Part shown: positions 45,610 to 51,951 of the stretch, piece after piece | Position numbering within the stretch: position 1 is the first letter of the stretch | Layout: every line of letters starts with the position of its first letter | NCBI RefSeq assembly: GCF_036013645.1 | Contig: NZ_CP107869.1 | Span: 3,844,001-3,908,000 of the forward strand | Source of the DNA: Streptomyces sp. NBC_00490 | Lineage (GTDB): Bacteria; Actinomycetota; Actinomycetes; Streptomycetales; Streptomycetaceae | DNA: 64,000 nucleotides | Direction: 5' to 3' | Made by a program: the position numbers and the translations under genes | The notes under the pieces: generated by a model | Database searches by the model: none | The model's input: the letters and a program-made list of their open reading frames with translations, nothing else | What the model was told of the DNA's origin: nothing

Positions 45610-45701
45610 GTTACTTCGCGTAACGACTAGTAAAGGACATCACAACAACCGCATAGTCCTTTGGTAACAACGCAATAACTCAAACCTCGTACCGATCGGT
45701 A
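45610..45701 (+). promoter_or_regulatory. Operator/promoter region upstream of the cytochrome-flavoprotein operon, three inverted repeats
   Basis: In an unusually AT-rich stretch: GTTAC-N5-GTAAC at 45610-45624, AAAGGAC-N17-GTCCTTT at 45632-45662, and a perfect 12-bp palindrome TACCGATCGGTA at 45690-45701. TAGAGT at 45712-45717 could be a -10, with the palindrome covering the -35 position, a typical place for a TetR-type repressor. Regulators unknown. Confidence 0.55.
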
Positions 45702-45760
45702 TGGCTCCACTTAGAGTGCGGCAGCGGGACCGCTTTCCCGAACTGCTCGGAGTTGCCCCC

Positions 45761-47047
45761 ATGAACGCTCGTCGTAGTAACAGCTCGCTCCCCAGGACAG
45801 GCCGCTCGGCCTATGGCGTGGTGTCGGCTGTCGTCCTGCTTTTCATACCCGTGTTCGTGCTGGTCGGAGGTGAAAGGGTCCGCGACTTCCTGAACTTCGG
45901 CGCGGGCGTGCTCTCCCTCGTCTGCCTCACCTGCTCGGTGATCTGGGGCCTGGTCGCCCAGGACCGGATCTTCCTCAATCCGCAGCAGCGGATCATCGGC
46001 CAAGCGGTGCACCGGACGACGGCGGTCGGCTCGATCGCGTTCCTGCTGCTGCACATCACCACGAAGGTCGCCCTCGACCACACCTCGCTGATCTCGGCGA
46101 TCATCCCGTTCTCACTCGGCGTCACCGGCAGCGCCGGTCTGATCGGCCTGGGATCACTGGCCGGCCTGCTGATGATCTTCGTGGGCATCACCGGCGCCCT
46201 GCGCAGCCAGTTCGCCTCCCCGGCCCCGGTCGCCGCCCGCTGGCGCGCCATGCACATGCTGGCCTACCCGGCCTGGTGCTTCGCCCTGGTCCACGGCCTG
46301 TACTCGGGCCGCGAGGCCAAGCCGATCTTCGTGATCCTCTACAGCCTCTCGCTGGCCGGCGTCATCGGCGCACTCGCCCTGCGCTCGGCACCCCGCCCGA
46401 TCAAGCGCAAGGTCGCCGACCGGATCCAGACCGTCCTGGGCACCGGGGAGCGCCCGGGCCGCGAGGAGCTGGACGCGAGCCGCGCCAGGAACGCGGAGGC
46501 CTCGTCCGCCCTGCCGGGCTACGAGAACAAGCGCGCGGGACAGTCGCGTACGGCCCAGTCCTACGAAGCCCCCGCGCCGCCCGCCCCCGAACCCGCCAAC
46601 GGCTTCGCGGCCGCCTACCGCGCCGTCACACCGACCCCGCGCATCCCGCAGCAGCCGTCCTACGGCGCCGACCAGACCGCCCGCATGGACCTGCCGATGG
46701 ACATGCAGGCCACGGAGGCGATCCCGCGCTACGACACCGGCGGCAGCACCTCGGGCAGCTGGCCGATCCCGTCGCCCCCGCCGGTCGGCGAGGCACCTCC
46801 GTCGGCCTACGACCCGCTCCAGGACACCGGATACAACATCCCGACCTACCGCAATACGGACACATCCGGATACGGCACGAGTGATGTGTACGACACCGGT
46901 GAGTCGAACAACTCGTCCGGCGCGTACTACCCGAATGACACGTACAACAGCGGTCCCGCCACTGATCCATCGCCCGGTGATTCGTATGACTTCGGCACAC
47001 CGGGCTCGGGCGAACCTTGGAACATGCCTTCCGGAGGCTATAGGTGA
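45761..47047 (+). CDS. Diheme FRE/NOX-type membrane cytochrome b with long disordered C-terminal tail
   Basis: 428 aa from the ATG at 45761 (GGAG 8 nt upstream). About six membrane helices occupy residues ~15-215. The helix 'VHRTTAVGSIAFLLLH' has HX13H and the later helix 'MHMLAYPAWCFALVH' has HX12H, the bis-heme pattern of ferric reductases, NADPH oxidases and MsrQ. From ~225 the cytosolic tail is disordered, rich in Pro/Tyr/Asp/Ser with many 'YDTG'-like phrases. The next gene, a NuoF-like flavo-iron-sulfur protein, overlaps by 4 bp (GTGA), so the pair should form one electron-transfer unit. Electron acceptor unknown. Confidence 0.85.
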   Translation: MNARRSNSSLPRTGRSAYGVVSAVVLLFIPVFVLVGGERVRDFLNFGAGVLSLVCLTCSVIWGLVAQDRIFLNPQQRIIGQAVHRTTAVGSIAFLLLHITTKVALDHTSLISAIIPFSLGVTGSAGLIGLGSLAGLLMIFVGITGALRSQFASPAPVAARWRAMHMLAYPAWCFALVHGLYSGREAKPIFVILYSLSLAGVIGALALRSAPRPIKRKVADRIQTVLGTGERPGREELDASRARNAEASSALPGYENKRAGQSRTAQSYEAPAPPAPEPANGFAAAYRAVTPTPRIPQQPSYGADQTARMDLPMDMQATEAIPRYDTGGSTSGSWPIPSPPPVGEAPPSAYDPLQDTGYNIPTYRNTDTSGYGTSDVYDTGESNNSSGAYYPNDTYNSGPATDPSPGDSYDFGTPGSGEPWNMPSGGYR

Positions 47048-48657
47048 ACGAGGCCCTGCCCGACGTCCCAGAAGTCCGCGTGGTCGGTCTTCCTCAGCTC
47101 ACGTCGGGTTTCGACCTTGTCGAAAGACTGGACCTGCCCATGCACCTGAAGGTGCATGGGCCGCTCGAACCCCTGGGCGGCGAACAACTCGCGAAGCTGG
47201 CCGAGAACATCAACCTGAAGGGCCGCGGCGGCGCGGGCTTCCCCTTCCACAAGAAGCTGCGCTCGGTCGCCGAGGCGGCCATCAAGCGCGGTGTGCGCCC
47301 GGTCGTCGTCGTCAACGGCAGCGAGGACGAACCGGCCTGCCGCAAGGACACGGTGCTCATCAACCGTGCCCCGCACCTCATCCTCGACGGCGCCCTGCTG
47401 GTCGCCGAGGCCCTGGGTGCGCGCACGCTCGTGGTGGGCGTCACCCGTGAGTCCACCCAGCGGTCCATGGAGGCCGCGCTCGCCGAACGCGGCCTCAGCA
47501 ACGGCCGCCGGTCGGCGCTCCGCGCGCGCGTGCAGCGCAATCCCGTCCGTATGGTCACCGGAGCGGCGGCCTCACTGATCCGCTCCATCGACGGCGGCCC
47601 GGCGATCCCGCCCGGCCGCAAGGTCAGCGCCTCGCAGAACGGCGTCGGCGGCGCGCCCACCCTGCTGTCGAACGCGGAGACGTTCGCGCAGCTGGCGATC
47701 GCCGCCCGCATCGGCCCGGAGCGCTACGGCAACACCGGCCTGTACGACGAGCCGGGCACCGTCATGCTCACGGTCTCCGGCGCGGTCGCCCGCCCCATGG
47801 TGATCGAGGCCCCCACCGGCGTGCCGCTGCGCTACATCCTGCAGCTCGCCGGCGCCCCGCCGGTCCCGCAGGGCGTGCTGACCGGCGGCTACCACGGCAA
47901 GTGGATCGACGCCGCGACGGTCAACGAGGCGGTCGTCTCGCGCAACTCCCTGGACGCGGTGGGCGGTGCGCTCGGCGCGGGCGCGATCCTGCCGATCAGT
48001 CAGGAGACCTGCCCGCTGGGCGAGTCGCTGATGGTGGCGAAGTGGCTGGCCGAGGAGAGCGCGGGGCAGTGCGGTCCCTGCTACCTCGGTCTGCCGGCCG
48101 CCGCGCGCGGCCTGGAGGACATCCTCAACGGCGGCGGCCCGGCCGCCCTGGAGGCCCTCAAGCAGGTCGCCAAGAACGTGAAGCGGCGCGGCGCGTGCTC
48201 GCACCCGGACGGCTCCGCGATGTTCCTGGAGTCGACCATCAAGGCGTTCACCGACGACCTCGCCGCGCATGTCCTCGGCAACGGCTGCGGACGGCCCGTG
48301 GAGGGCGTTCTGCCGCTCTTCGAGGGCGGCATCACACCCGCGGGCCTCCCGAGTGGCGCCAGCGCCGAGGAGAACGGCCCCAGCCGCCAGAAGATCTACG
48401 TCGACTGGACGCTGTGCCGCGGCCACGGCCTGTGTGCCGACATCCTCCCGGAGGTCTTCGAACTCGGCGCCGACGGCTTCCCCACCGTCGCCCAGGCCCA
48501 GGTGCCGCGTTACGCCGAGGCGAAGGCACTCCGCGCGGTCCGCCGCTGCCCCGCCCTCGCCCTGCGCCTCGAGGAGGCGGCACCGCGCGACAACAGCGCG
48601 TCCCGCAACCTCCCGGTCCTCTCCCAGGGCCGCGGCCGCCGCGCACTGGGGCGCTGA
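47044..48657 (+). CDS. NuoF-like FMN/iron-sulfur protein fused to a C-terminal 3Fe-4S ferredoxin
   Basis: 537 aa from a GTG. The NuoF-type FMN core is seen as 'GRGGAGFPFHKK' (from residue 60), 'VNGSEDEPACRKD' and 'PTLLSNAETFAQL'; a SLBB segment follows. The cluster motif of NuoF, normally ESCGxCxPC, reads 'ESAGQCGPC' here: Ala340 replaces the first Cys, leaving Cys343, Cys346 and Cys385. The GEE-type NADH motif is also absent. The C terminus (from ~450) is a 3Fe-4S ferredoxin with Cys458, Cys464 and Cys502 (CX5C...CP). It likely moves electrons between a soluble partner and the diheme cytochrome encoded with it. A strong terminator follows. Confidence 0.88.
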   Translation: MNEALPDVPEVRVVGLPQLTSGFDLVERLDLPMHLKVHGPLEPLGGEQLAKLAENINLKGRGGAGFPFHKKLRSVAEAAIKRGVRPVVVVNGSEDEPACRKDTVLINRAPHLILDGALLVAEALGARTLVVGVTRESTQRSMEAALAERGLSNGRRSALRARVQRNPVRMVTGAAASLIRSIDGGPAIPPGRKVSASQNGVGGAPTLLSNAETFAQLAIAARIGPERYGNTGLYDEPGTVMLTVSGAVARPMVIEAPTGVPLRYILQLAGAPPVPQGVLTGGYHGKWIDAATVNEAVVSRNSLDAVGGALGAGAILPISQETCPLGESLMVAKWLAEESAGQCGPCYLGLPAAARGLEDILNGGGPAALEALKQVAKNVKRRGACSHPDGSAMFLESTIKAFTDDLAAHVLGNGCGRPVEGVLPLFEGGITPAGLPSGASAEENGPSRQKIYVDWTLCRGHGLCADILPEVFELGADGFPTVAQAQVPRYAEAKALRAVRRCPALALRLEEAAPRDNSASRNLPVLSQGRGRRALGR

Positions 48658-48667
48658 GCCGGCATCA

Positions 48668-48702
48668 CGAAGGGGGCCGCCCGGATCGGGCGGCCCCCTT
48701 CG
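48668..48702 (+). terminator. Terminator after the NuoF-like gene
   Basis: A perfect 16-bp stem CGAAGGGGGCCGCCCG / CGGGCGGCCCCCTTCG with a 3-nt loop, 11 bp after the stop codon. Confidence 0.85.
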
Positions 48703-48745
48703 TCGTCAGCGGGGACGCGGGACAACTGCCCCTGGAAACGCAAGA

Positions 48746-48775: not shown

Positions 48776-48782
48776 CTTTCTG

Positions 48783-48855
48783 TGGAGCTAAGGAGAATTG
48801 AACTCCTGACCTCCTGCATGCCATGCAGGCGCTCTACCAACTGAGCTATAGCCCC
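48783..48855 (-). tRNA. tRNA-Ala (anticodon GGC), first copy
   Basis: 73 nt. The acceptor stem GGGGCTA/TAGCTCC, a D-arm with 'AGCTCAGTTGGTAGAGC', the anticodon stem CCTGC/GCAGG with loop ATGGCAT (anticodon GGC), and a T-arm with 'GTTCAATTC' fold as a standard cloverleaf. The discriminator is A and CCA is not encoded. Identical to the copy at 51879. Confidence 0.96.
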
Positions 48856-51869: not shown

Positions 51870-51878
51870 CTTCGTCTG

Positions 51879-51951
51879 TGGAGCTAAGGAGAATTGAACT
51901 CCTGACCTCCTGCATGCCATGCAGGCGCTCTACCAACTGAGCTATAGCCCC
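51879..51951 (-). tRNA. tRNA-Ala (anticodon GGC), second copy
   Basis: 73 nt, base-for-base the same cloverleaf as the copy at 48783-48855, same orientation, 3.1 kb away. CCA not encoded. Confidence 0.96.

Follow-up and report, generated by a model that had tools for sequence, protein, structure and literature searches.

A membrane diheme candidate and a NuoF-like flavoprotein fused to a ferredoxin form a conserved Streptomyces module with a proposed role in outward electron transfer

What does a NuoF-like flavoprotein do when its gene overlaps that of a membrane cytochrome and a ferredoxin is fused to its end? The question is raised by two genes, here called A and B, in a 64,000-nucleotide stretch of the Streptomyces sp. 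NBC_00490 genome (contig NZ_CP107869.1, positions 3,844,001 to 3,908,000, forward strand; "the window" is this whole stretch, and coordinates count from its first letter). The genome measures 10.8 Mb, with the pair at 3.89 Mb. An earlier note, made from the letters of the window, had proposed that a diheme FRE-type membrane protein and a NuoF-like protein with flavin mononucleotide (FMN) and iron-sulfur (Fe-S) centers make one electron-transfer unit. Here, we find that A and B are a conserved module. We also lean, with somewhat more confidence than doubt, toward a reading in which they form a single transmembrane unit with an outward flow from FMN through Fe-S and ferredoxin to two haems, a judgment that allows for two counts resting on motif-selected rows. 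The genes are as follows.

45761-47047, plus strand: gene A, putative FRE/MsrQ-like cytochrome b of 428 amino acids; six transmembrane (TM) segments by hydropathy and spacing, both ends inside by charge
47044-48657, plus strand: gene B, NuoF-like FMN/Fe-S protein fused to a ferredoxin, 537 amino acids; GTGA overlap with A

The 4-bp overlap seen in the earlier note is formed by the GTG start of B at 47044 and the TGA stop of A at 47045-47047. To place it among relatives, we used 86 Streptomyces loci, comprising the best 80 of 410 related stretches (all Streptomyces by title) and six more. A was present in 85 of these, and the distance from its stop to the B start was exactly -4 in 81 of the 85; of the other four distances, one was 159 and one -1, and two were large and negative, which we regard as extraction errors. 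The B motifs ESAGQCGPC (or a one-letter variant) and CXGHGLC were each found in 84 of the 86 loci, with two unread. At the one locus where A was not found (L035, 5626-7611, S. cyaneochromogenes), a second NuoF-ferredoxin copy with a different N-terminal extension lies close to a chromosome end.

Is A a plausible haem protein? The features that bear on this are listed here.

46010-46054, plus strand: HX13H in A, H84 (46010-46012) and H98 (46052-46054)
46253-46294, plus strand: HX12H in A, H165 (46253-46255) and H178 (46292-46294)
46388-47044, plus strand: low-complexity C-terminal tail of A, with short conserved motifs and GEPWNMP close to its end

Both His patterns, noted earlier in the membrane protein, hold up, as each is present in 83 of 85 orthologs chosen by homology alone. 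We infer a pairing in which H84 and H165 likely bind an inner haem and H98 and H178 an outer one. No Pfam or NCBIfam model matched A above cut-off: PF01794 scored 12.8 bits against the Pfam cut-off of 28, and the NCBIfam model of MsrQ 10.2 bits against 130, on which score we rejected A as MsrQ proper. As a family, the relatives of A are easier to place. PF01794 is matched at E<=0.01 by 30 of 40 aligned A-like proteins, and the A-family profile matches 8qt6 (E 3.9e-4) and, weakly, STEAP4 (E 0.65). By these sequence matches A is a divergent FRE/MsrQ-like protein, with haem as its predicted cofactor, and NCBI names its orthologs 'cytochrome b/b6 domain-containing protein' or 'YedYZ heme-binding membrane subunit'. 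Like the FRE/NOX superfamily and MsrQ, A has four haem-ligand-type His in a six-TM-type protein; unlike them, it has no fused FAD/NAD (flavin and nicotinamide adenine dinucleotide) domain detectable in a Pfam scan. The TM count is one of hydropathy, a simple scan giving five segments and six when the HX13H segment is added, while loop charges place both ends, and with them the tail, in the cytoplasm. Membrane frames were listed in ten distant loci with no His requirement, and in all ten the frame beside the NuoF-like gene has both patterns. In an alignment of 40 A-like proteins, four of the eight invariant columns are the haem-ligand His, although most rows had been chosen by the His patterns, which makes this no independent test of their invariance. 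The tail, about 200 residues rich in P, A, G, S and T, has conserved islands in the 82 Streptomyces A proteins longer than 380 amino acids, and GEPW lies close to the C-terminal end in 79 of them.

B combines a familiar fold with several departures from it, which fall at these positions.

47221-47244, plus strand: GRGGAGFP, FMN-site loop, residues 60-67
47314-47349, plus strand: NGSEDEPACRKD, residues 91-102, retained half of the FMN/NADH site
47560-47568, plus strand: Gly-Ala-Ala (GAA), residues 173-175, which is Gly-Glu-Glu (GEE) in complex I NuoF
48055-48081, plus strand: ESAGQCGPC, residues 338-346; the first Cys of the N3 site is Ala340, Cys343 and Cys346 are kept
48196-48198, plus strand: Cys385, fourth N3 ligand position, kept
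48388-48579, plus strand: Fer4_15 ferredoxin domain, Cys458-x2-His-x2-Cys464 ... Cys502-Pro, that is CRGHGLC...CP

Pfam finds Complex1_51K (7.4e-31), NADH_4Fe-4S (1e-16) and Fer4_15 (1.1e-14) in B, and PF10589 scores 61 bits against a cut-off of 23.5. The motif, a predicted model and a structural superposition agree on a NuoF fold with its FMN loop; the superposition spans approximately residues 6-414, and the ferredoxin domain is outside it. Nevertheless, B is not a standard NuoF. As the earlier note had read, the first cluster Cys in ESAGQCGPC is replaced, and it is Ala in all 25 rows collected by homology (a further 38 rows came from a pattern demanding Ala and were excluded from this count), whereas the four NuoF-type rows all retain Cys. 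B thus lacks the four-Cys motif (ESCGxCxPC plus C). In place of GEE it has GAA, and the second Glu is retained in none of 14 fused rows. Against TIGR01959, the model of complex I NuoF, B scores 160 bits where 558.65 is the cut-off. On N3 Cys, GEE and score we rejected B as a complex I subunit; the genome has its own NuoF-type gene, with ESCGKCTPC and GEE, at 5.99 Mb. It differs from NuoF/Nqo1, the 51-kDa subunit, in its fused ferredoxin as well. The N3-type site, with its three Cys, probably holds a [3Fe-4S] or open-site cluster.

The claim that B lacks the motif for reduced nicotinamide adenine dinucleotide (NADH) was only partly right: GEE is gone, but the stretch N-x-x-E-x-E-P...K-D is retained. 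By our mapping of residues from motif spacing, this stretch matches Glu95, Glu97 and Asp103 of Aquifex NuoF, which are described in the consulted part of PMC6560083 as contacting NADH through water. The added ferredoxin was correctly recognized, and is a C-terminal domain of the CXX?XXC(X)nCP type in its His variant (CXXHXXC...CP). Ferredoxins of this type are reported to carry [3Fe-4S], with His and Asn versions relatively positive in potential, in PMC6237146. The B domain resembles the ferredoxins of cytochrome P450 (P450) systems described there but, unlike them, is joined to a NuoF-like core and encoded next to a membrane cytochrome, with no P450 among the four window neighbors scanned.

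The earlier note had proposed looking for the two-gene block in other actinomycetes. Of 394 genomes of the class, 98 contain a DNA pattern that encodes AGQCGPC, in 42 of 137 genera; among the 40 Streptomyces genomes sampled, 32 contain it, counting that of the window. The reversed pattern, used as a control, is present in 4 of the 394. We compared 53 loci, made up of 40 of the 69 pattern sites outside Streptomyces and 13 earlier loci (one Streptomyces). Two pattern hits had no NuoF-like gene, leaving 51 loci (one, L129, starts 690 bases from a contig end, which cuts its upstream side). The block was found: a gene with both His patterns stands directly upstream of the NuoF-like gene in 43 of the 51, with 61 residues between the His pairs in 33 of the 43, and this conserved adjacency in divergent genomes supports the proposal of one electron-transfer unit. 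The ferredoxin is a separate frame directly downstream in 40 loci, fused in nine and missing in two. ApbE lies just upstream in 35 loci, 33 of which have the diheme gene, such that ApbE - diheme protein - NuoF-like - separate ferredoxin is the commonest order outside Streptomyces (33/51). All nine fused loci have the diheme gene, and none has ApbE nearby.

The tree of NuoF-like proteins (67 rows, first 440 residues; midpoint root for drawing only; long branches L191, L128 and L188 unsure) places the fused rows in one clade (100/99). Its sister is a pair of ApbE-type loci, L116 and L188, with a joint support of 100/99. The simplest reading of these sequences would be one ferredoxin fusion, together with loss of the linked ApbE, from an actinobacterial ApbE - FRE - NuoF-like - ferredoxin cluster. 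Rows labeled oxygenase or catabolic form another clade. In seven loci (L124-L127, L130, L131, L134) the NuoF-like protein bears GEE, and a ferredoxin-like frame comes right after its gene in all seven; this pair may be an unrecognized type of ferredoxin reductase. Pfam, applied to L134 and L131 of the seven, finds a Rieske oxygenase beside the pair in L134, and a P450 and a second ferredoxin lie approximately 4.5 kb from it in L131. The NuoF-like and ferredoxin core seems to be a part that actinobacteria can reuse for electron delivery: one branch has it beside a membrane diheme protein, another near oxygenases.

How might electrons move through such a unit? In the reading we favor, B would be a cytoplasmic FMN protein with a NuoF fold, and electrons would enter at FMN from a reduced cytoplasmic donor. 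In GEE-bearing relatives that donor is presumably NADH or its phosphorylated form (NAD(P)H); in the Streptomyces clade it could be NAD(P)H through an altered site, or another donor. A donor other than NADH in this clade is reasonable but unproven, and reduced coenzyme F420 (F420H2) is a suggestion. From FMN, electrons would cross the modified N3-type site to the flexibly tethered ferredoxin domain, which would dock at the membrane and pass single electrons to the inner haem (H84/H165), and from there to the outer haem (H98/H178) and an extracytoplasmic acceptor. One possible role of the long tail of A, which has a conserved motif close to its end, is to keep B at the membrane. The ferredoxin is most likely the link to the membrane and not an entry port: because the flavin module regularly includes it, either as the next gene or by fusion, it is most simply a one-electron link from the flavin to an acceptor. 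The GEE-bearing relatives near a Rieske oxygenase or P450 fit the same flow, and with the diheme protein as acceptor the chain would run outward.

Several observations weigh against this reading. The 43 of 51 loci with a diheme gene were counted from genes selected by the His patterns, as was the four-His invariance in the alignment; moreover, in eight of the 51 loci a diheme gene was unrecognized, and so the flavin and ferredoxin core occurs without one too. In other loci the variable ferredoxin residue is often not His (24 His, 13 Arg and 8 other among 45 motifs read, a few of them spurious; six loci gave none). Both GEE glutamates are lost in the window's clade, which makes nucleotide binding doubtful. 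The proposed direction is argued from analogy and from published potentials of related ferredoxins, and the structural support is a predicted model of B alone. Finally, no extracytoplasmic partner was recognized beside the pair in Streptomyces.

Candidates for such a partner were seen beside more distant fused relatives. In six loci from five genera (family f84, L195-L200), genes for DUF1996 and DUF4142 proteins both lie within approximately 3.5 kb of B (6/6), and PF03640 repeats are present in three of the six. These neighbors were found by similarity to seeds from the same loci, and Pfam assigns four of the proteins to DUF1996, two to DUF4142 and two to PF03640. In family f6, two loci have TlpA-like and CcdA-like genes after the fused unit, with DsbD_TM just below cut-off. 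At E<=1e-6, neither the separate-ferredoxin loci nor the 80 Streptomyces loci yielded any of these five kinds. We consider all of them candidate outside partners of the fused unit. No DUF1996 or DUF4142 gene was found near the pair in the window's genome; such genes are present elsewhere in it, with members of the closest DUF1996/DUF4142 pair approximately 81 kb apart. Only tentatively do we suggest that the fused clade is a flavinylation-independent transmembrane electron exporter, its FMN fed by a non-NADH donor and its partners DUF1996, DUF4142 and PF03640 proteins or thioredoxin-like proteins.

Could the pair instead be an ordinary member of the MsrQ-like/NuoF-like flavinylation systems, running on NADH and on a flavinylated protein whose gene lies elsewhere in the genome? 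Of the alternatives this one fares best, though we consider it unlikely. It has homology on its side, and a published precedent. Meheust et al. 2021 (PMC8238504) count 1797 MsrQ-like flavinylation clusters, of which 1437 include an NAD-binding domain and 31 include a NuoF-like protein. According to the sections consulted, the 31 pair an MsrQ-like (PF01794) with a NuoF-like (PF10589) protein, MsrQ-like clusters are mostly actinobacterial, and NAD(P)H is inferred as donor for at least some. The earlier note knew of no described complex with this set, and as a claim of novelty that is not supported. What differs, judging from the genes, is the fused, ApbE-less, GEE-lacking form: the MsrQ-like section of that paper names no ferredoxin, N3 change or ApbE-less or fused form, and the part seen of a 2024 follow-up (PMC11334425) does not mention NuoF. 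Among the papers listed in a literature search that lacked most subscription titles, there was no experimental study of the A/B pair, and PMC8238504 was the only one on the pairing of FRE with a NuoF-like protein. The window's genome does encode FMN_bind at three places (0.39, 2.48 and 7.69 Mb), the last two of which also have ApbE, but both of these carry an FRE-like gene of their own (H-x13-H, 460 and 446 amino acids) beside FMN_bind and ApbE. Neither ApbE nor FMN_bind is in the window cluster, the nine fused loci have no ApbE nearby, GEE is lost, and A falls below the PF01794 cut-off, all unlike the published systems.

No FMN_bind was found within 15 kb of the ApbE-type cluster on the same contig in the 31 of 33 genomes searched (those other than G521 and G432; many fragmented), which is why we propose that the linked ApbE may modify something else; 14 of the 31 gave no FMN_bind at all at E<=0.001. 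Upstream of ApbE in eight of the 35 ApbE loci (L116, L118, L165, L174, L175, L177, L178, L179), a rough filter picked out single-TM proteins of approximately 90-115 amino acids with S/T/G-rich or T/P-rich tails, a possible unrecognized ApbE substrate or anchor.

The earlier note had the FMN/Fe-S module fed by a ferredoxin partner and not by NADH; in such a version a separate low-potential ferredoxin (or flavodoxin) would feed FMN, and the fused domain would be the entry port. Absence of the second GEE Glu from all 14 fused rows suggests that NADH may no longer be the donor. Yet 49 of 51 loci have a ferredoxin within the unit itself, the CXXHXXC type to which the window's belongs is relatively positive in the characterized relatives covered by PMC6237146 and would be a poor source for FMN, and near the oxygenases flow would be from flavin to ferredoxin. 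We therefore regard this version as slightly less likely still. Inward flow, with A oxidizing quinol or an outside donor and B delivering the electrons to a cytoplasmic acceptor, is improbable: MsrQ, a relative, is described as quinone-binding in the part of PMC8238504 consulted, but ApbE just upstream in most loci points to work outside the cell, as do the TlpA/CcdA-like or DUF1996/DUF4142 genes beside fused relatives, though neither fixes the direction. Least probable of all is that B is a ferredoxin reductase for cytoplasmic oxygenases and A its anchor or a mere neighbor, for although oxygenase genes lie near some relatives and eight loci have no recognized diheme gene, the haem-ligand His are kept in 83 of 85 A orthologs, the overlap is exact in 81, and no P450 or Rieske gene is among the four window neighbors scanned.

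Outside the coding regions, three features accompany the unit that we favor as an outward electron-transfer module.

45610-45624, no strand: inverted repeat GTTAC-TTCGC-GTAAC, intergenic
45665-45760, plus strand: conserved leader of gene A, holding TAACAACGCAATAACTCAAAC, CACTTAGAGTG and a GGAG Shine-Dalgarno-like site, with a putative role
48667-48703, no strand: inverted repeat after B, perfect, 17 bp with a 3-nt loop; terminator-like, with no scored T tail

Gene A, whose divergent neighbor is a leucyl-tRNA synthetase gene, starts with the ATG at 45761, from which the His are numbered and which has GGAG upstream. The ATG at 45701, which would give a longer form, is the less likely start, since the leader of L019 has an inserted base in the alignment. 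We aligned 80 ortholog upstream regions, window included (13 of the 80 without ATG anchoring). The earlier note had reported three upstream palindromes, unspecified. TTAC-N5-GTAA (45611-45623) is conserved, with the core TTAC...GCGTAA kept in orthologs, and the repeat around it is a possible regulator site. As regulatory sites we rejected AAAGGAC/GTCCTTT (present in 4 of 80 regions), TACCGATCGGTA (12 of 80) and ACTAGT (2 of 80). The strong terminator that the earlier note described after B stands as a perfect inverted repeat, but a terminator scan, which requires a T run, gave no plus-strand site at 48667-48703. Downstream of this repeat lies a tRNA-Ala gene (48782-48855, minus strand), one of two tRNA-Ala (GGC) genes approximately 3 kb apart in the window, the other at 51878-51951, also minus.

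The fused clade offers a direct test of whether a NuoF fold works without the GEE glutamates and with three N3 cysteines. Knowing the donor and the outside acceptor would reveal the way in which these soil bacteria export electrons and, if the exporter reading is true, Streptomyces and its relatives would have in this unit a separate respiratory or extracellular redox branch.

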